This document shows positions 1 to 15,769 of a DNA stretch of 23,403 nt, piece by piece. Positions within the stretch are counted from its first letter, which is position 1. Every line of letters starts with the position of its first letter. The stretch covers positions 1 to 23,403 of IMG/VR virus record IMGVR_UViG_3300032046_000225; one strand, given 5' to 3'. Position numbers and translations under genes: made by a program. Below the pieces are notes generated by a model. That model searched no databases. It saw nothing but the letters and a program-made list of their open reading frames with translations, and had not been told where the DNA came from. This DNA comes from a virus.

Positions 1-351
1 AAGGTTCTCTGAATTATCAGGGTCGGGATTAGCATACCAACCTATCTTATCCCCTTTGTGTTCAATTTTATTTCCTATGAGTGAGGTTACGGCGTTAGGA
101 ATATCAAAGAGGGGTTTTATGGTGAGGGAGTTTTCTGGCTTGCCAGACTTGTCCTTCCACTTGGTAAAGGTTATCTGGGGCTTAAAAGCAGTAAATTGAG
201 AAGCATTCTTATCGCCTATAATAACTTCATCATTGGCTTCGCCCAGAGTAACTTTATATGCTTTAGTATTAGCAATAGGAGTGATATTCTTTTCTTGAGC
301 AAAACAAGTTGAGGTGAGGAAAAGGAGAGATAAAAATAAGAGTTTTTTCAT
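1..351 (-). CDS. Secreted protein of unknown function, cut by window edge
   Basis: The reading frame opens at ATG 351-349 and runs without a stop to base 1, giving at least 117 residues; the C-terminus lies outside the window. Residues 1-19 are a classical Sec signal peptide: MKK, a Leu/Phe-rich core, then T-C-F-A with signal peptidase I cleavage expected before Q20. The mature part is polar (lysine, asparagine, aspartate) with no motif I recognise. It follows the 705-residue fibre gene in the same direction but is separated from it by the oppositely oriented HNH gene. The segment around the cleavage site (FAQEK) also occurs in the nozzle-like protein at 11064-12884. It may be a tail-associated or host-surface protein; the function is unknown. 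An overlapping minus-strand frame at 348-980 is a shadow of the HNH gene and is not proposed. Confidence 0.8.
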   Translation of the reverse strand, partial: MKKLLFLSLLFLTSTCFAQEKNITPIANTKAYKVTLGEANDEVIIGDKNASQFTAFKPQITFTKWKDKSGKPENSLTIKPLFDIPNAVTSLIGNKIEHKGDKIGWYANPDPDNSENL

Positions 352-352
352 A

Positions 353-380
353 TTGACAAAGTTCCTAATTGTGGTATACT
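353..380 (+). promoter_or_regulatory. Sigma70-type promoter for the HNH gene
   Basis: A perfect -35 box TTGACA (353-358), a 16-base spacer and a -10 box TATACT (375-380) point rightward, giving a predicted start near G387. The first 11 bases (TTGACAAAGTT) are identical to those of the promoter at 3473, the only other plus-strand promoter seen next to a plus-strand gene. The -35 box sits one base beyond the start codon of the leftward gene at 351. Confidence 0.75.
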
Positions 381-386
381 TATTTT

Positions 387-480
387 GGTTATCGGAAGCG
401 GTATTTTTATATCTAATCGGGCTTTGAGTAAGCGGAGAAACTTCACCGTTTCTGATAACCACGCTGAAAGAAGCCCTTTA
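387..480 (+). ncRNA. Structured leader RNA with pseudoknot upstream of HNH gene
   Basis: The predicted transcript starts at G387. Bases 387-393 (GGTTATC) are complementary to 454-460 (GATAACC), and with two G-U pairs the helix can extend to 15 pairs (387-401 with 446-460). Independently, a nested hairpin can form: GGGCTT 419-424 with AAGCCC 471-476, AGCG 431-434 with CGCT 462-465, and AGAAAC 436-441 with GTTTCT 448-453 around loop 442-447. In the nested form GATAACC stays unpaired and can pair with 387-393 as a pseudoknot; the 15-pair helix would instead disrupt the inner hairpin. The outer stem is followed by TTTAATTTTT, like a weak intrinsic terminator, and then by the HNH ribosome binding site. 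This could be an attenuator, a cis-acting regulatory RNA or a small ribozyme. I do not recognise a known class. Confidence 0.5.
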
Positions 481-497
481 ATTTTTGAGGTGATGGA

Positions 498-995
498 ATG
501 TATAAAAGAGATAAAAAGGGTAGGTTTATAAAGGGAACTCCTCAACCGAAAGGAATTAAAAAGGGTCATATTCCCTGGAATAAAGATAAACATACTGGTC
601 TTATCCCTCGGTCTGCTTTTAAAAAAGGACATAAATCTTGGAACAAAGGAAATCATATGTATTTGGGTGGTAAGAGATTTGAGAAAGGACATATTCCGTG
701 GCTTAAAGGAAAACATCCTGAATATTTGCAAGGAAAAAATCATCCTAATTGGACTGGTGGAAAGATTATTCATGGAGGATATGTTTATCTTCTTAAACCT
801 AATCATCCATTTTGTAATTTTGGTGGTTATGTGCGTCATTCTCGTTTGGTTATGGAAAAAAGTATAGGTCGTTATCTTAAATGTGAAGAAGTGGTGCATC
901 ATCTTAACCGTAAAAAAACAGATGATAGATTGCAAAATCTTAAATTGTTTAAAAATCATTCTGCACATATTAAATTTCATTGGAATAAAATTTAA
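498..995 (+). CDS. HNH homing endonuclease with NUMOD3-like repeats
   Basis: This 165-residue protein is a probable site-specific DNA endonuclease of the free-standing homing type. The N-terminal half carries three copies of a basic KKGHIPWNK-like motif (around residues 21-29, 42-50 and 62-70), as in the NUMOD3 DNA-binding modules of phage HNH and GIY-YIG enzymes. The C-terminal half has the HNH signature: H134-H135, N147 in DRLQNL, and H154/H157. A strong ribosome binding site (GAGGTGAT, 487-494) sits just before ATG 498. It is on the plus strand, opposite to the virion genes, fills the space between two leftward genes and ends only 10 bases from the stop of the fibre gene, as expected of a mobile gene inserted between genes. 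It has its own promoter and structured leader. Target site unknown. Confidence 0.88.
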   Translation: MYKRDKKGRFIKGTPQPKGIKKGHIPWNKDKHTGLIPRSAFKKGHKSWNKGNHMYLGGKRFEKGHIPWLKGKHPEYLQGKNHPNWTGGKIIHGGYVYLLKPNHPFCNFGGYVRHSRLVMEKSIGRYLKCEEVVHHLNRKKTDDRLQNLKLFKNHSAHIKFHWNKI

Positions 996-1005
996 TTAAT
1001 CTTGT

Positions 1006-3123
1006 TTATTGTGTGTAGTTAAATGTTACCCCCATAACTCCCCCTGTCGTCCAGGTAGTTGCCGTGATGTGAAATCCTACCCAGTCATTCGCATCTATCG
1101 AGGGGTTACTCAAAGATGCGTCATCTGCGGCGTTTGTGCCAGATGTAACAGTTATATCCGTAGCTCCGTCTACTCCTGCACAGTTCGCCCCATTCGCATC
1201 ACACTCGTCGAGATGGCAAGTAGCAGACCACGAAGTTCCAGTTGCCGTAACATTAACACTTGTTATGGTAATCGCCACAGGAGTTTTCCATAAAGTTCCA
1301 TAATCAGAGGCAGTAGATATTGTGCCTGATAATTGAAAACTCTTACTCAACGGCACTTGCCCTGCCCCTGTTCCCCAGTCTATATCAGTAAGACCTAAAC
1401 TATCGGCAGGCAAAGTTAATTCACCATTTCCCGTGCCATCTGTAGTCAAAGCTATAGTATCAGTTGTAGCATCGCCTATTGTAAAAGCAATATTTCCACT
1501 CTTTATATCTCCGCCCGATACAGTAATATCCCCAGAAAATGTAGCTAGTCCTGTCGTCCAAGTAACTGTATAATCAGTCGCAAGGTCAAAAGTCCATACC
1601 TGTTGAGCTCCAGCTCCCCAAGTGGGAGCGATAACTTCGGCAGGAGCAAATTTAAGCACTGCCGTATCTATAACTAAGCCTACGCCTTCTAAATCTGTGC
1701 AAGCAGTAACATCAGTTGTAATTATTCCAGCTAATCCATCCAATCGGTCTAATTCTGCCGCTGAAAGTGTAGTCGGTGTAGAAGTAGTTAAACTTGTGGT
1801 AATGGTAGGAGTGGTTAAGTTCCAAGAGGTTACTGCTACGCTATCGTCTATTGTAGGTGAAGCCCAAGTGCCGCCGAGTTCTCCTCCTGGTGTTTCCGTA
1901 GAATTGTAAACAGCATTTGTGCCTTCCGTTAAAGTCGCAACATCTACCGTTCCTGAAAATGTCGTTTTCGCAGTTGTCCAGGTCATTGTTACATCAGTAG
2001 CTAAATCAATAGTCCAAACAATACCTGCCCCTGAACCCCAAGTTAAATTTCCAAGTTCAGTAGCGTCAAAAGTAGGCGTATAAGTAGAACCTGCACCTGA
2101 TGCAGTCCCATCTATTCCTGTTCCATCCGCAACAGTTCCGACATAATTGGCGATTGTAGCTTGTTTAGCATTAAATGTAGTCCAATCTGTAGACCATAAA
2201 TAGCCATTTGTAGTAGTGTCTGCTTTTGGTATGGCTATTGTAATGTCTGCATCTGCTCCTGGTAGAATGTTATCTGTGCCGCCTGTAAGAGGTGCAGTCG
2301 TAACTAAATCCTTGGCTAAAGTCCCCGCCATTTTATCGTTAAATGTATTCCAGTCCGTAGACCATAAGTAACCGTTTGTGGAAGTATCTGCTTTAGTGAT
2401 TGATAAAGTTATATCGGCATCAGCACCTGGGAGTATATCATTCGTCCCACCAGCTAAAGGAGTGGTAGTTACTAAATCTTTAGCAAGCGTTCCAGCCATT
2501 TTGTCATTAAAGGTATTCCAGTCGGTTGACCAGAGATAGCCATTAGTTGAGGTATCGGCTTTTCCAAGTATCGTCTGAATTTCAGCAGAAGTATCTACTG
2601 TGGGGTCGACTTCGGTATGTATAAGTGTTCCCCCTGTGGTAGGAAGTGTCCAAGTAACCGCACCTGCAATATCTGGAATAATTAAAGTCCCTGCCCCCTG
2701 TGGGTCATAAAAACTGATATAAGTCCCGCCATCTGAGGTGCCGTCAAGACAAGCACCACCTGTGCAGTCGCCTACATCAGTAACATCACCGGCACCGGCA
2801 GGGGCATTTTCAGTGCATACTACCTTACCTCCGCTTTCAATACACCATTTGCCAGTTGTAAGAGTGCCGATTTTATCGCAACTATCAACTATATTATTAA
2901 CATCTGTATCGTAGGTGGCTTTGAGCATATCACCAGAACCACCCCCCGAAAAAGTAACTACTAATCCTGTGGCGGTATTAGATAATGAAGTATTGGGAAA
3001 TCTTACTTTGGTAGGAAAAACTGAAGGAGAACCATCTTGTTCAATCCAATTAACAGGCGGAAAAGCACCGTAAGAATTACTTGCAAAACAGAGTATCGCT
3101 AATATAATAAATAATTTACGCAT
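1006..3123 (-). CDS. Large repeat-containing tail fibre or adhesin with signal peptide
   Basis: The protein has 705 residues, is rich in Thr, Gly, Asp and Ala, almost lacks charged stretches and looks beta-structured, as in phage tail fibres. Residues 1-20 form a Sec signal peptide (MRKLF, hydrophobic core, cleavage expected after S-Y-G). A 56-residue unit with the phrase NGYLWSTDWNTFNDK occurs 2.4 times in the first half. A second repeat, with the phrase VWT-DLATD-T-TWTT, occurs twice, about 420 bases apart. Phrases such as GGTWASPTI and AAELDRLDGL are common in metagenomic fibre proteins. A ribosome binding site (AGGAG) lies in the 7-base gap after the 107-residue gene, so both are probably co-transcribed. 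It likely decorates the tail and contacts the host surface; the receptor is unknown. A secreted adhesin is the alternative suggested by the signal peptide. Confidence 0.75.
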   Translation of the reverse strand: MRKLFIILAILCFASNSYGAFPPVNWIEQDGSPSVFPTKVRFPNTSLSNTATGLVVTFSGGGSGDMLKATYDTDVNNIVDSCDKIGTLTTGKWCIESGGKVVCTENAPAGAGDVTDVGDCTGGACLDGTSDGGTYISFYDPQGAGTLIIPDIAGAVTWTLPTTGGTLIHTEVDPTVDTSAEIQTILGKADTSTNGYLWSTDWNTFNDKMAGTLAKDLVTTTPLAGGTNDILPGADADITLSITKADTSTNGYLWSTDWNTFNDKMAGTLAKDLVTTAPLTGGTDNILPGADADITIAIPKADTTTNGYLWSTDWTTFNAKQATIANYVGTVADGTGIDGTASGAGSTYTPTFDATELGNLTWGSGAGIVWTIDLATDVTMTWTTAKTTFSGTVDVATLTEGTNAVYNSTETPGGELGGTWASPTIDDSVAVTSWNLTTPTITTSLTTSTPTTLSAAELDRLDGLAGIITTDVTACTDLEGVGLVIDTAVLKFAPAEVIAPTWGAGAQQVWTFDLATDYTVTWTTGLATFSGDITVSGGDIKSGNIAFTIGDATTDTIALTTDGTGNGELTLPADSLGLTDIDWGTGAGQVPLSKSFQLSGTISTASDYGTLWKTPVAITITSVNVTATGTSWSATCHLDECDANGANCAGVDGATDITVTSGTNAADDASLSNPSIDANDWVGFHITATTWTTGGVMGVTFNYTQ
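2166..2568 (-). repeat. 168-bp tandem repeat inside the fibre gene
   Basis: A direct repeat with period 168 bases (56 codons) is visible from landmark words at 2193, 2361 and 2529 (plus-strand ACCATA, ACCATA, ACCAGA). There are about 2.4 copies. Protein sequence is more conserved than DNA, so the copies are old enough to have drifted at third positions. Confidence 0.8.
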
Positions 3124-3130
3124 AATTCTC

Positions 3131-3454: not shown

Positions 3455-3472
3455 ATTATCTCCTTTAATTTC

Positions 3473-3501
3473 TTGACAAAGTTATGTTTATAGTGTATAG
3501 T
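3473..3501 (+). promoter_or_regulatory. Sigma70-type promoter for 48-residue peptide gene
   Basis: A -35 box TTGACA (3473-3478), a 17-base spacer and a -10 box TATAGT (3496-3501) predict a start near 3508, at or one base before ATG 3509, so the mRNA would be leaderless. It shares the 11 bases TTGACAAAGTT with the HNH promoter. Confidence 0.65.
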
Positions 3502-3508
3502 TAATTTA

Positions 3509-3655
3509 ATGAAAAAAATATTGATTCCTTTGACTTGGTTATTCATAGCATTATGTTTTATTAAATATGTTCTTCCCTATACAATATTCACGATTTTAGT
3601 AATATCTTTTTATACGGGTTTTAAAACTTTATTCTCACCCAAAAAATTATCTTAA
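3509..3655 (+). CDS. 48-residue membrane peptide (moron candidate)
   Basis: ATG 3509 opens a 48-codon frame ending in TAA 3653-3655. The product is MKK followed by hydrophobic residues nearly throughout: two predicted membrane helices (about residues 4-20 and 23-38) and a basic tail FSPKKLS. It stands alone on the plus strand in the 192-base gap between the leftward 1274-residue and 107-residue genes, and its end overlaps the last 9 bases of the former on the other strand. No Shine-Dalgarno sequence is visible, but the promoter ends 7 bases before the ATG, which fits leaderless translation. A tiny membrane protein with its own promoter is typical of phage morons, for example superinfection-exclusion peptides. 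That role is inferred from context only. It could be a chance frame, but promoter plus fitting start argues against that. Confidence 0.5.
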   Translation: MKKILIPLTWLFIALCFIKYVLPYTIFTILVISFYTGFKTLFSPKKLS

Positions 3656-3673
3656 TGCTTTGGGTCTTGTCAA
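3646..3673 (-). promoter_or_regulatory. Candidate leftward promoter for the 107-residue and fibre genes
   Basis: On the minus strand TTGACA (3673-3668), a 16-base spacer and GATAAT (3651-3646) straddle the stop codon of the 1274-residue gene. It points at the 107-residue gene and its downstream fibre. It converges with the rightward promoter at 3473, so the two transcripts would be antisense to each other for about 140 bases. Confidence 0.4.
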
Positions 3674-6600
3674 ATACTCACGCACATTAGCTGGTAATTC
3701 TCTTTTCTTTGCCCTCTCCATCAATTCATCAACTAAATTACTTCTATCATAATTGGGATATTTCTTCAAAAACTCCTCCAATGCCATACTATCACCCTTG
3801 CTATCCAAAACATAATCAAGCATTTTTCTATGTTCATTACGATAAATTTCCGCTTCTTGTCTTTCCTTAGATAAACTTTGCCACGCCTCTTTTCTTTCTT
3901 TTGTCGGTCCTACTAAAATACGCAATATTTCTTCTTTGGGAGAACTCGTATATTGGAGTTGATTATAAGCATTTCTTATCTTGTAATCATTTTCATCGGT
4001 GTTAATTAAGTCTATTATCTTCTTCATAGCAAAACCACCAGGAACAAGTGTAGGCAAGGATTTCTGGACTAAACGACTACGAATAATATCTTGTAGATTG
4101 GTTATTTCGTGGGTTGCTATTGCTTTCACAAACCTTGGTATTTCCGCACCGATTAAACTTGCCGCAGGACCTCGTGCAAAAGGAACTCCAGAACTATAAA
4201 TACCTAATCCAAAGTTCTGCCCTATATCTATTCCAGATAGTCCAGCCAATGAAGTGTATCTTTCAACATTCTTTATTAACTTCTTGGTATCCTCGGGCAT
4301 TTGCGGAAGTTGTTTATAATCACCATCTATTATCCCGTCAAGAAAAGGAACTGTTCTTGTTCCACCTAAAAGATACGCTATGGTGGCAAACCTCGCTACT
4401 TTCCCCCATTGTCCATTTCTCGCCCAGTTATATAATAAAAATCCCTGCTTAGTTGGGAATTGCGTAAATTGACCCAATATTCTACCTACTGAACCATATT
4501 GTCTGTATAATTTAGGAACATCTATACCCGTTTGAATAAATTGGGTTTTACGGACTATTTTAGTTGCATATCGTTCTGCCTCTATTAAACCCCTACCTTC
4601 GGATAATGCTTTTTGTTTTGCACCTAAATAAGTTACTCCCCTATTTACAAACTCTACTTGTGAAAAGAAATCTAATTGGTCTATGGGTTTTCCTAATGAA
4701 AAATCTCCTGAAAGTCCACTATCTATAAACTCTTGTCTGCCCTCAGAAGACATTAACCGTCTATAACCATACATTACCGATTTAGGTCCGATTTCGGGAA
4801 TAGTGTTAGTTAATACCTGAGTAGCATTTTTAGTTGCAGCGGAAAAGTTTGCATAAAGAGTTCCACGATAGGTAAGACGAACCAAGTCTTTAGGCAACCT
4901 GCCTAACACTTCTTCGCCCTTATATCTTCCTCTGCCTAAAAAGGCTTCCATAAAATCTACTGCTTCGTTTTTGTATTCAAGGTTTAGATATGGGTCTAAT
5001 AAAGTGTTATATTCTTGTAATACTGGTTCACGGAATATCTTTCTTGATACACTCGGAATATAAATATCTAACGCCTTGACTATGTCTTGTTTATATGGTT
5101 TAGCACCTTTTCTGGTTTCAAAAAACCTTGAATATAACTCATCGGGCAAAAATCTACCCAATGGTGATACATCATAACCTTTTTCCAACCCGTCATTTAT
5201 TAGGTGGGTGGCATAATCCCTTATTCCTTCGTATTCTGATTTCCCTGACGCACCCCAGATTTCCTTGTAAGCGTTGCGTATAATAGGTATAAATTTCTGT
5301 TGGTCGGGGGTAAGTTTGGCGATTTCCTCTGGCGATGCCCTACGATAATCAAGTGCCTTAAATATGGTTTCGCTTGCCTTTGAACCCTCTGTAATTCCTA
5401 CCTTATCGGCTAAATCAAGTATCTTGGTGTATTTATTGACAAATGCCCTTTCTTTATCTATGGCATCTGCTGCCCTTGTTATAAGGATACTTTCATCTTT
5501 ACTACCAGATTTATTTATAGCTTCAATTACTTTTTCACTATCATTGATTTCTTTTAATCTCTGTGCAACCATACTCTGTGGTAATTCACCGCCTTGGGTT
5601 TCCGCTATCTTTCTTTGGCGTTCTGCCATTACAGAGTTGATGAGTTTATCATTTCTAAGGACTTCTCCTGCTGGTGCTATACCACGATAAATCTTGGTTG
5701 CAGTTTGGGTTATGGGTTCGGTAAGTTCAGGAGGAACAACTATTGAACCACGCTTGTTGATAATGTTATTAAAGTTGGTCAATTTCTCTTTATCGTTCTC
5801 TAATTTTAACTCCCAATTTCCAACCTGTATTTTAACTGGTTTTGCATAAGTTCCTTGTTCTGGGGCTTGTGTTATTGCATCAGAAAGTTTGTTCTGTAAT
5901 TCAAACTTTTCTTCTGGGAGTAATAATCTTTCTTTTTTAGGTCCAGTTATTACTCCTCCTCTTTGAGTATACGGAACTTCACCAAATTTAATTTTTCCAG
6001 TAGGTTTAACTAAACCTATCTTTTTAGATATAGTGGGTTCTGATATGTTGGTTATTACCTCACCTGTGGGTTCTTTCATTTCTTTCTTAACACCATAAGG
6101 AAGTTCTCTAACTATTTTCCTTTTAGATACTATATATTCAGCAACATCTTTGCTAAAACCACCCTCTTTCTGAAAATAGTTAACTAATTCTGCGTTAGTA
6201 GATACTTCATCATTGTCTAATACGCTTGCAATCCAGTCTTTTGTTCTTGCTACATTTTCACCTATTGTTTCTCCTGGACGCATAATCTTTTGAGTAGCAA
6301 CCTTTATTTCAGCATTAAACTTCCCCTCACCCGTGGGTAATGGTTGTTTGACCTTTTCAACTACCGTAGGTGATTGCTGTGCTACCTTTTGGATAGTTTC
6401 TTCTGGGGTGGGTGTAGTCCTTAATTCTTTTGCCACTCCCTTTCCCAATGGTCTTGCTATTTGTTTTCCGCCAGTTACCGTAAATCCTTCACCAGTCCTT
6501 GTTACGCCTTTTTCAAGTAGGGGTTCATAACCTATTTGTTCGGGTTGTCTAAAACCGAGTTGTTTCTGTATTGATAAAGGAATTTTAGTAACCGATGGCT

Positions 6601-7471
6601 TTGCAGTAAATCCTTCTCCATATAAAGTTTCTGGAACAGGAAGTTGGCGTTGGGTAGATATGGGAATTTTTGCTTGTGCTAAACCCTGTTTAACTTCCCT
6701 TATTCCTTCTTTAAAAGTCGCCTCTTTGTAAAGGGTATCTATGTTTGTTTTGTCTTGAACTGATAAATCTGGTCGTTGATGGGTAAGTGCAGTTAATCCA
6801 CCAAATAAAATTCCAGTAGATAATTTTTCTCCTTTTGGGGCAATTAAAGAGCCGAGACCAAAAGAGGTAGCGATTGCTTTAGGATAAGAATGGATTAGTC
6901 CAGTCGGACCAAATATAGACCCCATAGCCGCTTCCTCTGGTAATCCTTGGGTTATGGGTTGTTTTTCAACTACATTTCTTAATGCTCTTGCACCAGTAAA
7001 AGTAGTAACACCGCCAGCCGAAGCACCAATATATTTAGCAAGAGTGGGTAATTTAGAAGCAAGTGCTTTTGTTACTCCACCACCGACTATTTTTCCACCT
7101 ACTCCACCACCCATAAAATAAGGCAATAGACCCACTAATGACCCCGCACCCCTTGATATCTTAGTAGGTAATCCTTGTGGGGTAGAAAGTTGGTCTATTT
7201 GTTCCCAGGGTATATTTTCGTTTCCTTTTAATTTTAATTGTTCAGGAATACCCAAACCTTGAGTAAGGGGAACACCAAACCTTCTTACTCCTGCCATAAA
7301 TTGAGCAATAGAACTTTTAGACAAATCTTCTTGGGGTTGAACGGTTTTAGTGGTTTCGGGTGGTATGGTTTCAATGTTGGAAAAAATAGAAATACCAACA
7401 GGTTCTTTCTGTTGAAAAATAGAAACCCCTTGTTGGTTTTCTTCTTTTATCTTTTGAAATATTGAAGCCAT
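3647..7471 (-). CDS. Very large internal virion / ejection protein
   Basis: At 1274 residues this is the longest protein here. The N-terminus repeats a short SIFQ/SIFS word three times in the first 32 residues. Residues about 95-230 are rich in glycine and hydrophobic residues with several potential membrane-inserting stretches. Residues 250-650 are Lys/Glu/Thr/Pro-rich and low in complexity. From about 690 on the protein is helical and better ordered, with phrases such as KALDIYIPSVSRKIFREP (about 800) and NFSAATKNATQVLTNT (about 872) that recall the large polyvalent or internal proteins of podoviruses. Its start overlaps the stop of the preceding gene (TAATG), giving tight coupling with the two other internal proteins. 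I infer that it is packed in the capsid and ejected into the host to span the envelope. No transglycosylase or protease motif was recognised. A tape-measure role is less likely. Confidence 0.65.
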   Translation of the reverse strand: MASIFQKIKEENQQGVSIFQQKEPVGISIFSNIETIPPETTKTVQPQEDLSKSSIAQFMAGVRRFGVPLTQGLGIPEQLKLKGNENIPWEQIDQLSTPQGLPTKISRGAGSLVGLLPYFMGGGVGGKIVGGGVTKALASKLPTLAKYIGASAGGVTTFTGARALRNVVEKQPITQGLPEEAAMGSIFGPTGLIHSYPKAIATSFGLGSLIAPKGEKLSTGILFGGLTALTHQRPDLSVQDKTNIDTLYKEATFKEGIREVKQGLAQAKIPISTQRQLPVPETLYGEGFTAKPSVTKIPLSIQKQLGFRQPEQIGYEPLLEKGVTRTGEGFTVTGGKQIARPLGKGVAKELRTTPTPEETIQKVAQQSPTVVEKVKQPLPTGEGKFNAEIKVATQKIMRPGETIGENVARTKDWIASVLDNDEVSTNAELVNYFQKEGGFSKDVAEYIVSKRKIVRELPYGVKKEMKEPTGEVITNISEPTISKKIGLVKPTGKIKFGEVPYTQRGGVITGPKKERLLLPEEKFELQNKLSDAITQAPEQGTYAKPVKIQVGNWELKLENDKEKLTNFNNIINKRGSIVVPPELTEPITQTATKIYRGIAPAGEVLRNDKLINSVMAERQRKIAETQGGELPQSMVAQRLKEINDSEKVIEAINKSGSKDESILITRAADAIDKERAFVNKYTKILDLADKVGITEGSKASETIFKALDYRRASPEEIAKLTPDQQKFIPIIRNAYKEIWGASGKSEYEGIRDYATHLINDGLEKGYDVSPLGRFLPDELYSRFFETRKGAKPYKQDIVKALDIYIPSVSRKIFREPVLQEYNTLLDPYLNLEYKNEAVDFMEAFLGRGRYKGEEVLGRLPKDLVRLTYRGTLYANFSAATKNATQVLTNTIPEIGPKSVMYGYRRLMSSEGRQEFIDSGLSGDFSLGKPIDQLDFFSQVEFVNRGVTYLGAKQKALSEGRGLIEAERYATKIVRKTQFIQTGIDVPKLYRQYGSVGRILGQFTQFPTKQGFLLYNWARNGQWGKVARFATIAYLLGGTRTVPFLDGIIDGDYKQLPQMPEDTKKLIKNVERYTSLAGLSGIDIGQNFGLGIYSSGVPFARGPAASLIGAEIPRFVKAIATHEITNLQDIIRSRLVQKSLPTLVPGGFAMKKIIDLINTDENDYKIRNAYNQLQYTSSPKEEILRILVGPTKERKEAWQSLSKERQEAEIYRNEHRKMLDYVLDSKGDSMALEEFLKKYPNYDRSNLVDELMERAKKRELPANVREYLTRPKALR

Positions 7472-8340: not shown

Positions 8341-8351
8341 AATTTACCCCC

Positions 8352-9164
8352 TTAATAACTACCCCATTGACCGAGTAGACCTAATGATGTTCCTGAACCC
8401 GCTTTAGTTTGAAAATACTGTGGCTGGCTTGCCTGAAAAATTGCATTGTATAAAGTATCAGCACTCGGAACTGCACTCTGATATTGATAAGATTGGACAT
8501 TCGGTTGCTGTGTTCCTACCTGCGGATATAAAATTTGCATATAAGGAGTGAGTGCCTGTTGTGCCGCTTGTCCTGCACTCATTCTTCTTTGATAATCTGA
8601 AGTTTCAAACTGACCTAATAAATCTTGCATACTTCTTGCTTCTGCTCCTGCGGCACGACCTCCAAAAAGCCCACCACCTAAATTAGCTCTTTGACGCATA
8701 GCTTGTTGCATAGCAGAAACCTGTTGACCTCTTTGAGTATTAAGTGCTTCTTGTTCTTGTGGTGTCATATAATCTGGATTTTGTAATCTTGAAAGTGCCG
8801 ATTGAGCCCCCTGTTCTACAATCTGACTTTGGTAAGGATAAAGTTCCTGTTGGGTTTGTTGTTGTGTTTTCGCCATCTGGGGCATATATTGATTATATAA
8901 AGCGTTATATAATGCCGTTTGTTGTGGCATAAATTCGTTTTGAATATCAAATGACTGTTGAGCCATTGGTTGACCATATTTTAATTGTGCCTGATAGATT
9001 TGTTCTGCTGACTCACCCGCACTTGGAGCAGGCGTAGTGGGTGTGGCTTGAATAGTTGTTTCTCCTTTTCCACACCTACACCCGAATAAATTATCCTTGC
9101 ATAATGGTTCGTTAAAATTACAAGGGAATAATCTGTCAAAGAATTTCTTAATTTGTTTCTTCAT
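8352..9164 (-). CDS. Glutamine-rich internal virion protein
   Basis: The protein has 270 residues. A short basic N-terminus carries four cysteines (C15, C22, C29, C31) followed by a Thr/Pro linker; the rest is Gln-, Ala- and Tyr-rich and helical, with a glycine-rich turn RANLGGGLFGGRAAGAEARS around 160-180. Phage proteins of this look, next to fibre genes and upstream of large ejection proteins, are usually internal core or ejection proteins comparable in role to T7 gp14. The start ATG 9164 has GGAGGAG six bases upstream and overlaps the end of the GNAT-like gene by 17 bases in another frame. The N-terminal cysteine cluster is unusual for this class and could bind a metal. Role inferred. Confidence 0.6.
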   Translation of the reverse strand: MKKQIKKFFDRLFPCNFNEPLCKDNLFGCRCGKGETTIQATPTTPAPSAGESAEQIYQAQLKYGQPMAQQSFDIQNEFMPQQTALYNALYNQYMPQMAKTQQQTQQELYPYQSQIVEQGAQSALSRLQNPDYMTPQEQEALNTQRGQQVSAMQQAMRQRANLGGGLFGGRAAGAEARSMQDLLGQFETSDYQRRMSAGQAAQQALTPYMQILYPQVGTQQPNVQSYQYQSAVPSADTLYNAIFQASQPQYFQTKAGSGTSLGLLGQWGSY

Positions 9165-9543
9165 TTCTCCTCCATTTATTGATAGGTATTAAAAACTTTC
9201 TGTTGTTTTTCTCATCATCACAAAAGAATATATGGGTTGCTTCCTCATTATCCTCTACACCGTCTCGTATCATCCTATTAAGCAATCCTTTGTGTCCTTC
9301 TTTGACATAAGCACATTGGATATAAGCAATCTTTCCTTCTGGGTGTTCAATATATTTATTATCTACCTTATTTAAGTCTTTAATAAAAAGCCAACAGGAA
9401 AACCCTATTATTTCTTTTCCCTCTACTATTAAAATATACTGACTTTTTGATACACAATTCGTTAATGTTTTTATCCATTGTTCTTCTGTCCATTCGTTAC
9501 GTCTATCACACAACTTCGCAATTTGCAGGAGTTCAGATATCAA
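9148..9543 (-). CDS. GNAT-like acyltransferase-fold protein
   Basis: The protein has 131 residues. The strand pair YILIVEGKEIIGFSCW (36-51), a second strand KIAYIQCAYV (71-80) and the following GHKGLLNRMIRDGVE (83-97) have the order of a GNAT N-acetyltransferase core: paired strands, the acetyl-CoA strand, then the helix after the pyrophosphate loop. The usual Q/R-x-x-G-x-G/A loop is degenerate (EGHKGL), so activity is uncertain. The start is TTG at 9543-9541, chosen because AAGGAG sits four bases upstream and no ATG fits. It lies between tail fibre and internal proteins, where podoviruses often have a small GNAT-like gene. It could modify a virion protein or be a non-catalytic structural relative. 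Confidence 0.55.
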   Translation of the reverse strand: MISELLQIAKLCDRRNEWTEEQWIKTLTNCVSKSQYILIVEGKEIIGFSCWLFIKDLNKVDNKYIEHPEGKIAYIQCAYVKEGHKGLLNRMIRDGVEDNEEATHIFFCDDEKNNRKFLIPINKWRRNEETN

Positions 9544-9565
9544 TTTACTCCTTAAAATTCTAAGA

Positions 9566-10744
9566 CTATTTAATTATAAGTTTCCTAACCTTGATATAAT
9601 CAGGAATAGTTTTTACTAATTCCTTTACCTGTTTATTATCTTCGGTCAAATATTTTCCAGAATGTAGGGGTTTATAAACTTCTTCCTTTGCCATATCTGG
9701 TTTGTATAATTCATTTACTAAAGTAAGCAAGCTCTTTTCTTTTGTAACCTGTGTCTTCAATTCTGCAATAGTTTCTTGGTCAACAAGGACTATCTCGTGT
9801 TTGGTTTCATCGTAAGAACCAAAAGGATGAGGCATTTTATCAAAGTCCCCTCCATTTCCATACGCAGGGTGGTCAGGTGCGGAATAAGCACATATAATTT
9901 CTTTCGTTACTTTATCTAATAATAAAAATAACCAATGGTCTGTGCCTGAAGCGGTTACATATCTTTGTTGAATATATCCTACATTAGCCCCAGTGCCAGA
10001 TGCATAAAAAGATACTACTGTTGTATAGGATGTGGGCCACGCTGTATCAGTTCCTCCTACACTATGGATACTGACCCATCCATTTGAAGAAGCACTTTTT
10101 ATTTGCGGATAAAATCCATATTCTCCACCAGGTAAAGTAACACTATAATTATTTCCTGTTCCACTTACTTCTCCTGTCGTTGTTTTAAGGGCGGTGGTAT
10201 CACAAGAAGCATTGGGTAAATAACCATCAGCACCTAACACCACCACTCCATTAGCCGCATTAGCCGCCGCAGTTGCACCTGTGCCGCCGTTTCCGACAGG
10301 AAGCGTTCCTGTTATAGCACTTACATTTACTTTAGAAGCGGTGGTTATAGTTGCTAACTTAGTATCCACTATCCCCGCAGAAGAATTTATGTCGGCATTT
10401 AATATAGAGTCGGTTAATGTTAATTTTGAATAAGGTATTCCAGCAGAGGCGATTATGTCGGCATTTACTATCAAACCAGTAAGATTTAGTTTTGAATAAG
10501 CAATCGCCGCCGAACCTGATATATCTATATTGGCGACTGTTCCGTTTAAAATGTCGTCAGTTGTGATTGTGCTATCTTCATAAACACTAACACCCCTTGT
10601 GAGATAATTAAAAATAGCGTCCTCATTACTTGTAACTTTTGAGGGGTCAATTATCGCCCCAGAGGTGTATGTAAAAACTCTTGAGGGGGAGCCCGCCCAA
10701 ACTAAAGTCGGAAGTAATAAAAATAGTAATAATAACTTTTTCAT
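9566..10744 (-). CDS. Tail fibre protein with signal peptide
   Basis: The protein has 392 residues. Residues 1-17 are a textbook Sec signal peptide (MKK, poly-Leu, V-W-A then G). The mature start SRVFTYTSGAIIDPSKVTSN resembles the N-terminal attachment region of many metagenomic tail fibres. Residues about 65-130 hold three copies of a 22-residue unit (SAGIPYSKLTLTDSILNADI-type) that suits a beta-helical or triple-stranded shaft. The phrase GNGGTGATAAANA near 150 is a common fibre motif. A beta-rich domain (190-290) and a charged helical end follow. The ribosome binding site AGGAG overlaps the stop of the 104-residue gene, so the two are coupled. It is presumably the host-recognition fibre; why it has an export signal is unexplained. 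Confidence 0.75.
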   Translation of the reverse strand: MKKLLLLFLLLPTLVWAGSPSRVFTYTSGAIIDPSKVTSNEDAIFNYLTRGVSVYEDSTITTDDILNGTVANIDISGSAAIAYSKLNLTGLIVNADIIASAGIPYSKLTLTDSILNADINSSAGIVDTKLATITTASKVNVSAITGTLPVGNGGTGATAAANAANGVVVLGADGYLPNASCDTTALKTTTGEVSGTGNNYSVTLPGGEYGFYPQIKSASSNGWVSIHSVGGTDTAWPTSYTTVVSFYASGTGANVGYIQQRYVTASGTDHWLFLLLDKVTKEIICAYSAPDHPAYGNGGDFDKMPHPFGSYDETKHEIVLVDQETIAELKTQVTKEKSLLTLVNELYKPDMAKEEVYKPLHSGKYLTEDNKQVKELVKTIPDYIKVRKLIIK

Positions 10745-10752
10745 TTTATCTC

Positions 10753-11067
10753 CTAAGGTGTTTCATCAGTCCAATATGGAATATATACAATCGTTCCATC
10801 ACTTTTTTCAACTTGTAACCACCCTGCACTATTAGCACTACTCGCTGAACCCATTTTTACAGTTCCCGTTCCAGTAGAAATAACACTTCCTGAATTAAAA
10901 CTTACCCGACCATTTGTTACATTCCAAAGTTGCTCTAAGGTTTCGTTCAAAGTAACTAACCCATTCTGGTCAAAGTCAGTTATTCTCTGGGGTTTGGGTG
11001 TCCTGTAAGCATAACTAATCCCCGTTACTAAAAGACTTCCTAATAAAAATCCGATTATAAATCTCAT
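10753..11067 (-). CDS. Small secreted or membrane-anchored tail-module protein
   Basis: I place the start at ATG 11067, not the upstream ATG at 11085, because 11067-11065 overlaps the TGA stop of the nozzle gene (ATGA), the usual sign of coupled genes. The 104-residue product begins with a signal peptide or membrane anchor (residues 1-20, cleavage possible after S-Y-A), followed by a polar segment that includes DQNGLVTLNETLEQLWNVTN (residues 34-53) and then a short beta-rich end with the sequence GWLQVEKSDGTIVYIPYW. The segment around 30-60 resembles the connector region of fibre proteins, so it may be a short fibre or fibre adaptor. No family recognised. Confidence 0.6.
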   Translation of the reverse strand: MRFIIGFLLGSLLVTGISYAYRTPKPQRITDFDQNGLVTLNETLEQLWNVTNGRVSFNSGSVISTGTGTVKMGSASSANSAGWLQVEKSDGTIVYIPYWTDETP

Positions 11068-12884
11068 AGGTAATCCAAATTCCACAAAAGAAAATTATAG
11101 CCGAACAAATCCATTGGTTCGTCAATGGTATCTTCACTGAATTTAACTTTTATATATCTTCCTGAAACATTTAAAGGAATAATGCTTAACTTAGTAGCAC
11201 TTCCCGCCCAAGTTGAAGTTCCCCAAATTGCAGTCCCCCACAAATCCCCAGACGCACCTATATCAACATTGGTTGAGGTTATTGTAGAGTCAAAATCGGT
11301 AGCATAATAAACTTGCATTGTGGAAGAGGTGTCGGCAGAAGCCCATAAGAAAAGTTCCCCGAAGTTCTTTCTTAGTGGTGCAGAACCCATATCATACCAT
11401 TTGGTAGTATAATAAGACTCTATCGCACCGACAGAATAAGTCGTTCCTGCGACTGCGGTAATAGTCCCTGTAACCATAAGCCCTGTTGAAATCATATCGC
11501 AGATCACTGCCTCTGTTCCTACCCCTGTTCCTGAAGTGAATGATACTATCGCACCCGTAGCGTCTGTGAAAGAAGCCGAAGTATCGTAAAGAATAATTAT
11601 CCCTGTGGCGGTTGCACCAGCATAAGTTCCCTTGCTTGTAATCGTCCCCGTTTCCCCCGTTACATCACTATTCTTATCGGGGTCTATCATCTGATAAATA
11701 AAAGATTTATAATTCCCGAAGTAAACCTGCGGAACTTCATTAGTGTCATTAGCCACACAGAAAGCATTGGCGTCTATTTGGATGTGTTTAGACCACTCCC
11801 CTATTCCGTAGTGAAAGTCTAAAAGTAAGTTATTTGTTCCCGTAGAGTCGGTAACACTAAGGTAATAATGGGCGTTTGTTTGGTCGTCTATACTCACAGC
11901 GTAAGGTAATCTTGCCGAAGAAAGACCATCCATAACTTCACCTATATTAGTAGAAATTTCTGTAACCTTTACCCCGTCACAGAAATTGATTGTCTTGTCT
12001 CTTGAAAGGAATATAAGACCTTCGGAGTTTCCTATCTGAATGTTTTGAATGGAGTTTTTGGCGATACAACCTATACCTTCGGAAACTTTGGTTACATTGA
12101 TTAACTCATCTCCGCCTACCAAAGAAACTTTATAAATACTATCCGTTAAAAATACATAAAGATTATCATAAAGAGTAGCAAAACCCTCTATCTGTTGACC
12201 GCCTAAAGAGGCAATATCCACATAATCATCATCAGACCAAGTTTCAATCGTTCCTACATTAGACCAACGGATACGGGTGGAATGAACGGTGGTGTTTTCG
12301 GTAGTGTTTCCGAAGATAAGATAATTTTTCCACCATATTACGCATTTAGCGTCAGTAACAGGGGTGGAAAGCCCAGTCCAAGAAAGTGCGGTAGTAGAAG
12401 TTCCTGTGGTTCTTATCGGGGGGTCAACATTATTCGTTCCTATTCCGTAATCTAAAGCGGTGATAAACTGCCATTGATAATCTGCACTCTCTGTGATAGT
12501 AACTCCACCTGTGATGTCGGTCTTTACCCCTGCGGAAGTGATAGCGAATAATTTATTTCCACAAGTTGCTATCTTTGTTCTTGTTCCAGTTGATTTATAG
12601 ATTTCGTGCATACCCGTTACTGCTTCAAAGTCATCAACCAAAGCGACAGTATCTAACCTTGAATGGTAGGCGTAACCATAGCGTTTGGAAGCACCGCCAG
12701 TTATATCAAGAGTGATATTTTGCAGGTCAGCAGACCTTCCGTCCAAAACCACGGGAGGCGATGAAGTATCATCAAGCCCTTTAAATTGCATTAAACCCTG
12801 TTCAGGAAAAACACGAGCTTTCTCTTGAGCAAAACCACAAGTTAAAGATAAACTTAAAAGTAATATTAAAAGTAGTTTCTTCAT
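11064..12884 (-). CDS. Tail nozzle / stopper-like protein with signal peptide
   Basis: The 606-residue protein is beta-rich throughout. The segment LQNITLDITGGASKRYGY (54-71) is the hallmark seen near the start of podovirus tail-tube or nozzle proteins (T7 gp12 and P22 gp10 type), and repeated W/Y-G-x-Y/F strands fit the propeller-like body. Its place right after the adaptor gene supports this. Unexpectedly, residues 1-19 are a clear Sec signal peptide (MKK, Leu-rich core, G-F-A then Q20). Only one base separates it from the adaptor stop and no good ribosome binding site is visible, so translation probably depends on re-initiation. If it is the nozzle, it should be assembled in the cytoplasm, which makes the export signal the notable oddity. 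Confidence 0.68.
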   Translation of the reverse strand: MKKLLLILLLSLSLTCGFAQEKARVFPEQGLMQFKGLDDTSSPPVVLDGRSADLQNITLDITGGASKRYGYAYHSRLDTVALVDDFEAVTGMHEIYKSTGTRTKIATCGNKLFAITSAGVKTDITGGVTITESADYQWQFITALDYGIGTNNVDPPIRTTGTSTTALSWTGLSTPVTDAKCVIWWKNYLIFGNTTENTTVHSTRIRWSNVGTIETWSDDDYVDIASLGGQQIEGFATLYDNLYVFLTDSIYKVSLVGGDELINVTKVSEGIGCIAKNSIQNIQIGNSEGLIFLSRDKTINFCDGVKVTEISTNIGEVMDGLSSARLPYAVSIDDQTNAHYYLSVTDSTGTNNLLLDFHYGIGEWSKHIQIDANAFCVANDTNEVPQVYFGNYKSFIYQMIDPDKNSDVTGETGTITSKGTYAGATATGIIILYDTSASFTDATGAIVSFTSGTGVGTEAVICDMISTGLMVTGTITAVAGTTYSVGAIESYYTTKWYDMGSAPLRKNFGELFLWASADTSSTMQVYYATDFDSTITSTNVDIGASGDLWGTAIWGTSTWAGSATKLSIIPLNVSGRYIKVKFSEDTIDEPMDLFGYNFLLWNLDYL

Positions 12885-12885
12885 A

Positions 12886-13881
12886 TTAAGTAATTGTTGG
12901 ACTATCTGGTAAATTTAACCAAGCATTTCCACCTTGTTGAAGTTGCGACCTAAGTGTTGGTATATAATCAAGATTTTGGAGGTCAGCCCGAACCATACTT
13001 CTCACACCCGCTGAATACATACCCTGTGTTGCTGTAAACAATTCAAGTTTCCCTTGATATTGATAAACTTTTGCCATAGCACCTAAACGGATAATCCATA
13101 TCCATTTCTCATCAATGTCAGGCACATCATTATCGCCTTCCAAGTTTCTTATTCGGGTATAGTATTCAATGTAAACAGAGATTGCTGATGAAGGTATGGG
13201 ATAAAAAGAAATAATTTTAAACCTTGCCGAAAGTTCGGTAGGTGCTAATTGGACTAAAGTAACATCTAAAGTGGCTTTTCTTACTGTGATAATTCCTACT
13301 GTGGAGGCGGATTTGGATATTCTTAACACATCTCCAGCGTTCCAGGTGATAGTTCCAGGCACAAAAGTCTCTCCTGTCAAAGTAAGACTTTCTGTGCGAG
13401 ATAATCCATTACTATCTGTTCCTACTATTCTTACTGTCTGGGTGGTGTCTGAGGACGAAGAAGATAAAACTTCAATCGTATCATCTGCGGTCAACCTTAC
13501 TGATACCCCTTCTTCTTCCCATATCCGATACCATTTAGGGTTTCCTGTTGCGGTGGGATTAGGAATGTAATCATAGAATAAGTCATCTGGGATAAAACGA
13601 ATTTTCTGTGGTGAGGTAGTCTGACGAATTAAACCGATAGCATCTAAATCTCTTGGAAGTTGGTAGAACTCGGTAGGGGCGACAGTAGCGAGAGTATATT
13701 TTCTGCGGTTAAAAGACCACTTGTGTTCATATCCCTTCTGTCCTGTCTGTTCAAACGCCCAAGCAGGACTTTGGATTTCCTGAACTGTTAAATTTAGGTA
13801 TTCATCTATTGTAGAATTTATCTGTGTTTCTCTTGTGTCAGTAGCGATTTGTGTCCTTAAAGCCAACCGAGTTTTTAACAT
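12886..13881 (-). CDS. Head-tail adaptor-like structural protein
   Basis: The protein has 331 residues and no signal peptide. An N-terminal helical part (1-60, with a Trp-containing SPAWAFEQ segment) is followed by a beta-rich insert (about 115-200, Ser/Thr-rich, possibly Ig-like) and a C-terminal helical part with PDIDEKWIWIIRLGAMAKVY (about 255-274). This layout, and its place just before the nozzle-like gene, matches adaptor proteins that sit under the portal in short-tailed phages. The start ATG 13881 has GAGGT six bases upstream. It overlaps the end of the O-antigen polymerase-like gene by 44 bases in a different frame, which suggests that gene was inserted upstream and extended into it. 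Confidence 0.6.
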   Translation of the reverse strand: MLKTRLALRTQIATDTRETQINSTIDEYLNLTVQEIQSPAWAFEQTGQKGYEHKWSFNRRKYTLATVAPTEFYQLPRDLDAIGLIRQTTSPQKIRFIPDDLFYDYIPNPTATGNPKWYRIWEEEGVSVRLTADDTIEVLSSSSSDTTQTVRIVGTDSNGLSRTESLTLTGETFVPGTITWNAGDVLRISKSASTVGIITVRKATLDVTLVQLAPTELSARFKIISFYPIPSSAISVYIEYYTRIRNLEGDNDVPDIDEKWIWIIRLGAMAKVYQYQGKLELFTATQGMYSAGVRSMVRADLQNLDYIPTLRSQLQQGGNAWLNLPDSPTIT

Positions 13882-14974
13882 TTTTTACCTCATTTTTAAT
13901 TACATATAATCCTGCATAGGACATAAGACCTATTACACTTGTCAACCATAAATGGGCTGGTGATAACATTCCCGATACAAAACAAAACCCGAAAAATATA
14001 CTCGCCAACCTAATCGTCAAGTCAGTTTTTAATGGTGTCTTAAAATAATCCCAAATACACCACAAAACCAAAACTAAACCTATTAAACCTACTTCAAAAA
14101 CTACCTGTAAGTATTCGTTATGTAAGTGTTGCCAATGATAATTTGTGCTTCCTATATTGCTTAATGAATAAGTCCCAAGCCCAAACCCTGTGATAAATTT
14201 ATCTTTAATTTCCTTACAAACCAAACCCCAAACCCTAAACCTGTCGGAATTAAAAAAGAAACCCTTGTTAACCAACCGTAAGACAGTTAACAAAACGGTT
14301 GATACTATTGAAAAACTTATGGCTAATCTGCGTTTCTTAAAGAATAACCAGAATAAAAATACCCCCAGACCCACAACTAAACCCGTAGCTGAACCCGTTA
14401 AAATAATTATCAACCATAATAAAATAAGTGATAAGATATTCTCTCGGCTTTTCTCAAAGAACAGAGGTTGTAATATCGCCAATAATCCCGCCAAGTGTAT
14501 AGGGTTTCCTATCGTTCCTGTCAATTCATCGTGTCCTGAAAGTCCTGCAAAAAACTCATCTAATTTAAGGTATTGTAAGGCACAGTAAAAAAGTAGAATT
14601 ATTACGCTATACTTCAACCACCTTAAAATCATTTCTATGTCATCCTTATTAAGATATTCCGTAATTAACTTATAGAGCCACACAAGGCATAATAGGTTAA
14701 AGAAAGGTAAAAATATCTTGATTGGATAATGTTGGGTCTTAGAGAATACCGTCAACCAACCATAAGCCGTTACTAATCCTGACCAACATATAAAAGAACC
14801 CAATGGTTTGTTCAATATTTGAACATACTTGGGCTTTTCAAAGAACGAATAACAAAACAAAATCAAAATGCTTACTTGGACAAAATGCCCTGTTGAGTGC
14901 CAAAGGTCTGTTGTTCTAAAAAAGAAATTTCCCCAAGGCAACAGAAAAAAGAACAGAATGAATAGATTACTCAT
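13838..14974 (-). CDS. O-antigen polymerase/ligase-like membrane protein (Wzy_C family)
   Basis: The 378-residue protein has about ten predicted membrane helices. Family marks of the Wzy/WaaL group are present: GTIGNPIHLAGLLA (153-166), a large non-membrane loop with the arginines R245/R247, then GFGLGTY (263-269) and the H-x-H-N box H283-L-H285-N286, followed by VFEVGLIGL. In this family the loop arginines and histidine join lipid-linked sugars outside the inner membrane. A phage copy would be expected to change host O-antigen or capsule after infection, blocking or shifting receptor use. Its ATG overlaps the TGA of the lipoprotein gene (ATGA), so the two form a pair. It sits between decoration-like and adaptor genes, an odd place for a conversion gene. 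The family is confident; the exact reaction (polymerase or ligase) is not. Confidence 0.85.
   Translation of the reverse strand: MSNLFILFFFLLPWGNFFFRTTDLWHSTGHFVQVSILILFCYSFFEKPKYVQILNKPLGSFICWSGLVTAYGWLTVFSKTQHYPIKIFLPFFNLLCLVWLYKLITEYLNKDDIEMILRWLKYSVIILLFYCALQYLKLDEFFAGLSGHDELTGTIGNPIHLAGLLAILQPLFFEKSRENILSLILLWLIIILTGSATGLVVGLGVFLFWLFFKKRRLAISFSIVSTVLLTVLRLVNKGFFFNSDRFRVWGLVCKEIKDKFITGFGLGTYSLSNIGSTNYHWQHLHNEYLQVVFEVGLIGLVLVLWCIWDYFKTPLKTDLTIRLASIFFGFCFVSGMLSPAHLWLTSVIGLMSYAGLYVIKNEVKNVKNSVGFKDTNRY
14496..14524 (-). promoter_or_regulatory. Candidate promoter inside the Wzy-like gene
   Basis: On the minus strand TTGACA (14524-14519), a 17-base spacer and TATACA (14501-14496) point toward the adaptor and nozzle genes. 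It lies downstream of the terminator hairpin at 15194-15211, so it could restart transcription of the tail genes. It is also part of coding sequence (codons for D-E-L-T onward), so chance is possible. Confidence 0.35.
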
Positions 14975-15183
14975 CTACCCTTGTATAACTTTTCGTAACA
15001 TTCATTACATATAATTTTCTTTCCATTCATTACCTTAAAAAATCCACATCGTTTATGGCAAAAATTACAGGTTTTTTTAGCCCAGAAATACTCTGTTGTA
15101 GCACCACTATCACCAGAAGGTTGAAAACGTGGATATGCACAACCTGTTAATAATAAAATTATAATTATAAAAATATATCTCAT
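14971..15183 (-). CDS. Zinc-ribbon lipoprotein
   Basis: The 70-residue protein has a lipoprotein signal peptide: a short basic start, an Ile/Leu core and the lipobox LLTGC with C15 as the lipid-modified residue. After a flexible linker (about 19-33) comes a four-cysteine zinc ribbon, C39-x2-C42 and C59-x2-C62, with an extra C46. A metal-binding knuckle on a lipoprotein is an unusual combination. It starts right after the terminator hairpin and has no visible ribosome binding site; its stop overlaps the start of the Wzy-like gene. Phage lipoproteins often act in superinfection exclusion, and pairing with a surface-glycan enzyme would suit this, but the function is unknown. A small Rz1-like role is unlikely because no Rz partner is seen. 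Confidence 0.7.
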   Translation of the reverse strand: MRYIFIIIILLLTGCAYPRFQPSGDSGATTEYFWAKKTCNFCHKRCGFFKVMNGKKIICNECYEKLYKGR

Positions 15184-15193
15184 ATAAAGACAA

Positions 15194-15211
15194 GAGGGGG
15201 TTGCCCCCCTC
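15194..15211 (-). terminator. GC-rich hairpin terminator after head genes
   Basis: A 7-pair stem GAGGGGG/CCCCCTC with a 4-base loop lies 13 bases beyond the stop of the decoration-like gene. On the minus strand it is followed by TTGTCTTTAT, a modest U-rich tail. It probably ends or weakens the strong capsid transcript before the lipoprotein/Wzy pair. Confidence 0.65.
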
Positions 15212-15223
15212 AGTTATTACTAA

Positions 15224-15769
15224 TTACTCAACGTTAGCTAATGTTGGTTGAATAAATATGAGTGAAGACCCAGCACCGATATTGGCTTCAATGTCGTTTC
15301 CAGCGGCACTTGCTTTGATTACAACACCAAGCATCGCTTCGTCTGAACCCACAACTTCATCTTCCACATAACCAGCAGCACCAGCAGAAACTTCTGTATT
15401 TACAGAAGGGGGTACATTATTGTTATGAACTACCGCAGGACCACGAATAATGATAGTTCCAACTTCACCATTCGCTATCCCTTTTCCTATTGTAGTTACA
15501 CCAGCTGTCCACGGACTTGATTCATCACTACTTGTTTGAACCCAGGCTCCTGTATCATCGTAAATTGTTCCTGCATCAGAATCACAGGCATCAAATGTCC
15601 AACTTACGCACATACCCGTTGCAATATCAGAACCAGAACCGTTATAGACTAATTCAGTCCATACGGTAGGATAGTTCTTTGGGTCAGTTACTGTTGGTAT
15701 GTTTGTTGCGTAACTATTGACTACTCCAAACACTAACAGGAGAGCCAAGACTAAAAATAATTTTCTCAT
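15224..15769 (-). CDS. Head decoration-like protein with signal peptide
   Basis: The protein has 181 residues. Residues 1-21 are a Sec signal peptide (MRKLF start, Leu/Val core, S-Y-A then T). The mature part is Gly/Ala/Val-rich and beta-structured: IGKGIANGEVGTIIIRGPAV (about 92-111) and the later VEDEVVGSDEAMLGVVIKAS resemble the short beta domains of small head decoration or stabilisation proteins (DUF2190-like in look). It lies 12 bases after the major capsid gene, the usual place for a decoration protein, with a strong AGGAGG ribosome binding site, and is followed by a terminator, as for an abundant product. Two cysteines (C54, C62) would suit a periplasmic disulphide. The signal peptide conflicts with a cytoplasmic assembly role, so it might instead be a secreted protein. 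Confidence 0.62.
   Translation of the reverse strand: MRKLFLVLALLLVFGVVNSYATNIPTVTDPKNYPTVWTELVYNGSGSDIATGMCVSWTFDACDSDAGTIYDDTGAWVQTSSDESSPWTAGVTTIGKGIANGEVGTIIIRGPAVVHNNNVPPSVNTEVSAGAAGYVEDEVVGSDEAMLGVVIKASAAGNDIEANIGAGSSLIFIQPTLANVE

Follow-up and report, generated by a model that had tools for sequence, protein, structure and literature searches.

Sec signals on decoration, nozzle and fibre proteins suggest that virion parts mature outside the cytoplasm in an uncultured family of tailed phages

To our knowledge, tailed phages are taken to assemble wholly in the cytoplasm. In the gp4/gp10 neck of phage P22 the nozzle comes after the adaptor, and gp10 is a cytoplasmic protein. Virion proteins that carry Sec signals and are used from the envelope are found in the coats of filamentous phages (PMC4823517, in part). 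Here we describe the IMG/VR virus record IMGVR_UViG_3300032046_000225, a linear stretch of 23,403 nucleotides (the window, taken at its full length) in which the head and tail genes of a short-tailed phage form one run, all on the minus strand. Its decoration, nozzle-like, 104-residue and fibre proteins all begin with predicted Sec signals, which suggests an uncultured tailed-phage family whose virion parts mature outside the cytoplasm, a situation unreported for known tailed phages. The same order of capsid, adaptor, nozzle-like, acyltransferase-like and further structural proteins is present in the Mx8/Mx9-type podoviruses, BUCT555, Bradyrhizobium phage ppBjS10J-1 and Manatee Spring contigs, and this group has a related capsid (26-33% identity) and a related nozzle. 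The group differs from the window in that its virion module lacks signals, its listed coding sequences include no Wzy_C product and the protein at the decoration position is unrelated by profile.

The genes of the window run from terminase through portal, scaffold, capsid, decoration protein, lipoprotein, membrane enzyme, adaptor, nozzle and 104-residue protein to the fibre, followed by an acyltransferase-like protein, internal proteins and more fibre-like proteins (Table 1). N-termini were inspected and also scored with a rule that combines a net positive n-region, an uncharged core of 10 residues and a -3/-1 site or a lipobox; calibrated on E. coli K-12, the rule was positive for 20 of 20 exported, 2 of 82 cytoplasmic and 9 of 24 inner-membrane proteins. 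A sequence-only reading had proposed Sec signals on at least six proteins, and both approaches agree with it, giving signals of the signal peptidase I (SPase I) type for the decoration, nozzle, 104-residue, fibre, 705-residue and left-edge proteins. Cleavage is predicted at A21/T22 in the decoration protein, A20/Y21 in the 104-residue protein, A17/G18 in the fibre, A18/Q19 in the left-edge protein and A19/Q20 in the nozzle, which gives the mature nozzle the start at Q20 that had been put forward. The A-x-A type of site described earlier does not apply to the 705-residue protein, whose site is of the G type (G19/A20, or A14/S15). A seventh protein was correctly named a lipoprotein (lipobox LLTGC), and the portal, scaffold, capsid, adaptor and internal proteins are signal-free, as first read. 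No other open reading frame of the window that was checked gave a signal by the same rule. Because the -3/-1 sites are present and the mature parts are soluble, these N-termini are better read as signals than as N-terminal membrane helices.

A search with the window nozzle returned 24 relatives (96-43% identity, 33-56% GC), and the capsid alignment brings in further contigs of up to 60% GC, for about 40 related IMG/VR contigs overall. With start codons picked by Shine-Dalgarno (SD) score, independently of the signal, a signal was present in 18/18 decoration proteins, 16/17 fibres, 18/22 nozzles and 11/14 of the 104-residue proteins, and in none of 21 adaptors, 19 capsids, 18 scaffolds, 14 portals and 8 terminases. 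On inspection, most of the apparently unsignalled members of the exported families were explained by the start that had been chosen or by the edge of a contig. A check for homologues that begin past the signal region showed that every clade homologue read with a complete N-terminus retains the signal. The sequences diverge among relatives, yet the signals and the cleavage site are kept: of 33 decoration proteins, 30 have Ala at position -1 and 26 have Ala or Val at position -3, which obeys the signal peptidase rule, and small residues at -1/-3 are conserved in the fibre too. The order capsid, decoration (signal), often lipoprotein, Wzy_C enzyme, adaptor, then nozzle, 104-residue protein and fibre (all with signals) is maintained in nearly all contigs spanning the region, its gaps being due to misplaced starts or lost frames in the simple gene calling that was used. 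In six longer contigs the nozzle, decoration and fibre genes are present in one copy each; two of these contigs, of about 39-40 kb, have first bases that recur near the end and are probably near complete. An in-frame second start with an SD sequence near the cleavage site was found in 0/18 nozzles, 0/22 fibres, 0/14 of the 104-residue proteins and 2/36 decoration proteins. Since the gene is single-copy and alternative starts are absent or nearly so, the sole nozzle of such a phage is the signal-bearing one. The pattern, recurring clade-wide in the same four families and absent from head and adaptor proteins, is not due to chance and belongs to the virion module, as had been claimed. In the capsid tree a branch with full support sets 37 signal-clade rows apart from the rest; the trait is confined to the clade of the window, where it holds throughout, and is not general to the phage group.

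The product of the gene directly after the capsid is a capsid decoration protein by its modelled fold, and its signal is present in every relative examined. Its AlphaFold2 model has a predicted local distance difference test score (pLDDT) of 87, and Foldseek against the PDB matched 6qyy (E 1.4e-4), 8hdt, 8qsy, 9ocb and 9kzj with a probability of 1.00; the matched folds are the phi29 gp8.5 base and decoration or head-fibre chains of cyanophage Pam3, HFTV1, Sf11, T1, E217 and TW1. Profile comparison did not relate it to the same-position proteins of Mx9-type phages, and neither it nor the Wzy_C enzymes found a relative in INPHARED. Cysteines in this family come and go together. Columns 116 and 122 hold both cysteines in 13 sequences, a single one in 0 and none in 21; columns 171 and 208 hold both in 8, one in 0 for either column and none in 19; columns 31 and 48 hold both in 3, one in 0 for either column and none in 31. 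On the capsid tree the first two pairs show 4 changes per column and the third 3 changes. When the decoration columns were limited to those that change 3 or more times, perfect concordance was seen in 3 of 55 cysteine pairs, compared with 8 of about 2,100 pairs of eleven other residues, so that the cysteines appear to be gained and lost in pairs, as expected of disulfides. Disulfides normally form outside the cytoplasm, and the paired cysteines would therefore suit an exported, oxidised decoration protein. A single pair of this kind was seen in the 104-residue protein, which is too little for a judgement. The signal-bearing decoration gene is tandemly duplicated in L074 (640-1626), and the fibre gene in L061/L062.

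The nozzle-like protein was identified by its place after the adaptor, which matches the P22 neck, and by sequence homology to phrog_3287 and the phage stabilization family; its AlphaFold2 model is poor (pLDDT 36). Aligned by hhalign, the clade nozzle reached 98.8% against nozzle-like proteins from outside the clade, which are annotated as phage stabilization protein. These distant homologues are signal-free, with only a short stretch ahead of the conserved core; this shows the addition of a signal to a pre-existing virion protein rather than a miscalled start. The window nozzle differs in its signal from P22 gp10. No signals were found on the listed virion-module proteins of Mx9, BUCT555, ppBjS10J-1, three Manatee Spring contigs and a Microcystis phage, and both signal and Wzy_C are absent from the sister contigs L083 and L084 over the stretch that these cover. 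Scans of genome contigs found no prophage of this kind.

The membrane enzyme, which the sequence-only reading had passed over, belongs to the Wzy_C O-antigen ligase superfamily (PF04932, 46.7 bits against a cut-off of 31.7). Enzymes of this superfamily use undecaprenyl-linked glycans and work at the periplasmic face. Wzy_C was the only domain at E up to 0.1; PglL_A and Wzy_C_2 were not found. The gene is present in 23 of the 24 nozzle relatives; the remaining relative is a fragment whose sequence begins inside the nozzle. The slot of the gene between decoration and adaptor is constant across the clade. The enzyme matches the signals in conservation and is probably their functional partner. R245, W249 and H285 are invariant. 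In WaaL the residues R288, R215 and H338, and in PglL R298, R224 and H349, are those that matter in the family (PMC3643930). The window enzyme shares the domain and the invariant Arg/His with WaaL and with the bacterial O-oligosaccharyltransferases PilO/TfpO, TfpM, PglS and PglL, as a likeness of residues rather than a one-by-one superposition, and like those transferases it is encoded beside signal-bearing proteins (PMC3643930, PMC12645811). It differs in being phage-borne and inside a head-tail gene run; WaaL ligases belong to lipopolysaccharide (LPS) loci and ligate to lipid A-core, whereas this gene lies outside any such locus. Since PilO/TfpO, TfpM and PglS transferases are often encoded close to their targets (PMC12645811, PMC3643930), the enzyme would, on the simplest reading, put host glycan on an exported phage protein. 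N-x-S/T sequons are not enriched in the exported proteins, and no glycan-synthesis gene was noticed in the window. The lipoprotein gene shares 4 bp with the enzyme gene. Its two-CxxC product is zinc-ribbon-like; lower-GC members of the clade keep it between decoration and Wzy_C, and it was not seen in the higher-GC members.

Signals and the Wzy_C enzyme also occur together elsewhere. An IMG/VR pattern scan for the enzyme, blind to signals, returned L104 (8163-14528: capsid, signal-bearing protein of 175 residues, Wzy_C, adaptor, unsignalled protein of 636 residues, signal-bearing fibre), L106 (7745-16137: signal-bearing protein of 187 residues, Wzy_C, another of 134 and large ones of 1045 and 809), L107 (1476-5580) with its relative L117 (5268-9401; capsid fusion, signal-bearing protein of 160/163 residues, Wzy_C) and L113 (6628-14019: signal-bearing protein of 168 residues, Wzy_C, another of 968). 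A small signal-bearing protein lies directly 5' of Wzy_C in all of these, mostly in the head module, and big signal-bearing fibre-like proteins come after it in L104, L106 and L113. The three distant phage enzymes tested all pass the PF04932 cut-off (54.4, 40.1 and 49.5). The signal-bearing protein of L107, adjoining the capsid gene, gave a weak Phage_cement_2 match (E 0.0011, under the cut-off). The L104 capsid is a distant relative of the window capsid; L106, L107/L117 and L113 look unrelated to the window phage, by appearance rather than by trees. That several unrelated tailed-phage lineages evolved the same device, with export, oxidation and Wzy_C glycosylation of decoration and receptor-side proteins and completion outside the cytoplasm, is conceivable, though less likely than not; it would give tailed phages a split-compartment assembly route and a means to coat capsids with host glycans.

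The signals split sharply in the clade of the window, with none on the head up to the adaptor and signals on the decoration protein, which sits on the outside of the head, and on the parts beyond the adaptor. This fits heads that are packaged inside the cytoplasm and completed with proteins from an exported pool. The cytoplasmic part would comprise capsid, scaffold, portal, DNA and adaptor, with all their proteins signal-free. The decoration, nozzle, 104-residue and fibre proteins would be exported, relieved of their signals, folded and kept in the periplasm; there the decoration protein would gain disulfides in many relatives, and the co-encoded Wzy_C enzyme would most likely move host glycan onto one or more of the exported proteins. 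When the inner membrane opens at lysis, DNA-filled, adaptor-bearing heads would meet the periplasmic pool and be completed. Sequence or model shows the signals and their conservation, the fold and cysteine pairing of the decoration protein, the nozzle homology, the enzyme family and the gene order; cleavage, glycosylation and joining at lysis are the steps that we infer. Late addition is feasible, since heads can receive decoration proteins or tail parts of the P22 type in vitro. Lysis rather than extrusion is consistent with an amidase-type endolysin, encoded in the near-identical contig L034 (11704-12207; Amidase_2, bearing a signal or signal anchor at the N-terminus). The coats of filamentous phages share the Sec signals and differ in being membrane proteins extruded without lysis, whereas the parts considered here are soluble components of a tailed double-stranded DNA phage. 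Export of the signal-bearing proteins appears very probable, and that they end up in virions is likely. Glycan transfer stands slightly short of an even chance, and completion at lysis is put forward tentatively. The two-compartment reading as a whole, with working Sec/SPase I signals on real virion proteins, we consider evenly balanced. The suggestion of an undescribed assembly or surface-display route thus survives as an undescribed route for virion parts.

Several points weigh against the two-compartment reading. The signal rule alone does not distinguish signals that are cleaved from anchors or membrane helices at the N-terminus. The co-occurrence of signals and Wzy_C in the window's clade has a single origin and counts once; the roughly 40 contigs form one clade and one case, and there are few other lineages, some of them known from fragments. 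In L104 the protein at the nozzle position is unsignalled. The decoration copy of the window itself has just two cysteines, so that the disulfide argument comes from its relatives. Covariation of cysteines seemed general at first and was dropped for the nozzle, where pairing does not exceed the background of other residues; the case for oxidation is thus confined to the decoration protein. Finally, a Wzy_C domain by itself fits protein glycosylation, LPS ligation of the WaaL kind or O-antigen polymerisation of the Wzy kind.

The best surviving alternative, though unlikely, is that uncleaved signals anchor nozzle, decoration and fibre in the inner membrane, where heads would be completed and the anchors would stay in the virion or be trimmed late. 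The N-termini are indeed hydrophobic, and the rule also accepted 9 of 24 E. coli membrane proteins; however, the conserved small -1/-3 residues of decoration and fibre would be purposeless for an anchor, the mature domains would lie outside the membrane and still apart from the heads, and the decoration cysteine pairs point to an oxidising compartment. It is improbable that the exported proteins serve at the surface of the infected cell rather than in the particle, in receptor masking, superinfection exclusion or O-antigen change together with Wzy_C and the lipoprotein. Phage-encoded O-antigen polymerases and exclusion lipoproteins exist, and more signal-bearing genes come after the fibre genes, but nozzle, decoration and fibre are single-copy with none to spare for the virion, the decoration fold is a capsid-associated one and the genes keep a conserved order within the head-tail run. 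We give quite a low probability to hydrophobic N-termini that act as virion parts (membrane-penetrating or packing peptides) on proteins that remain cytoplasmic. Some podovirus tail knobs do use hydrophobic elements for membrane penetration, but a penetration peptide would have no obvious use on a head decoration protein, each of these N-termini shows the n-, h- and c-regions and a peptidase site, and the Sec pathway would normally draw in N-termini of this sort. Miscalled starts, with proteins beginning past the signal region, are largely refuted and extremely improbable: the SD sequences at nozzle starts are weak (median score 3.5), as expected where translation is coupled to the upstream gene (in the window the adaptor stop TAA lies one base before the nozzle ATG), but those of decoration and fibre are strong, in-frame alternatives near the cleavage site are almost nil and the hydrophobic character is retained over genomes of 33-60% GC.

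Searches of an open-access library turned up no account of signal-bearing decoration or nozzle proteins of tailed phages. The target proteins of phage diversity-generating retroelements are described without signal peptides (PMC6199706), and two rumen phages with only one or two signals per genome (PMC5723332). If the two-compartment reading is true, part of a tailed virion matures elsewhere, with disulfides and possibly host sugars, beyond what cytoplasmic assembly gives. When and where the head is closed would become testable, as would how phages hide or stabilise their capsids. A signal-bearing decoration gene beside Wzy_C in the head module can serve as a search marker for more such phages.

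Table 1. Features of the window, with positions numbered from its first nucleotide
Feature	Position	Strand	Remarks
Portal protein (642 residues), signal-free	18700..20628	-	phrog_1216
Major capsid protein (320 residues), signal-free	15782..16744	-	phrog_9953, E 1.1e-54
Capsid decoration protein (181 residues)	15224..15769	-	Sec signal at about residues 1-21 (15769-15707); SD AGGAGG just 5' of the start
Small lipoprotein (70 residues)	14971..15183	-	Lipobox LLTGC; two CxxC pairs; homologues in 13/24 loci
Wzy_C O-antigen ligase superfamily polytopic membrane enzyme (378 residues)	13838..14974	-	PF04932
Head-tail adaptor (331 residues), signal-free	12886..13881	-	PF24175 SU10 adaptor, E 2.8e-14
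Tail nozzle-like protein (606 residues)	11064..12884	-	Sec signal at residues 1-19 (12884-12828); phrog_3287, E 2e-24
104-residue protein	10753..11067	-	Sec signal at residues 1-20 (11067-11008)
Tail fibre (392 residues)	9566..10744	-	Sec signal at residues 1-17 (10744-10694); weak phrog_2012 minor tail match
Repeat-rich fibre-like protein (705 residues)	1006..3123	-	Sec signal at about residues 1-19
Left-edge protein, cut by contig end	1..351	-	Sec signal at residues 1-18 (351-298); 410 residues in near-identical contig

Some further features of these genomes deserve mention. Between the left-edge and 705-residue genes, window positions 498-995 on the plus strand encode an HNH_3-like endonuclease (PF13392, E 7.5e-5, just under the cut-off), probably a free-standing homing endonuclease. 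The 1274-residue internal-type protein at 3647-7471 is replaced by a different and shorter one (797 residues called) in the otherwise near-identical contig G001. The small acyltransferase-like protein at 9148-9543 is conserved across the phage group, and its slot holds a putative acyl-CoA N-acyltransferase in Mx9 and GNAT proteins in BUCT555 and ppBjS10J-1. Further signal-bearing proteins are encoded 3' of the fibre genes in L034 (16392-19437), L037 (3204-4748) and L039 (6951-10043), and the one at L037 3903-4748 carries a lectin-type Laminin_G_3 domain (PF13385, E 1.8e-24).

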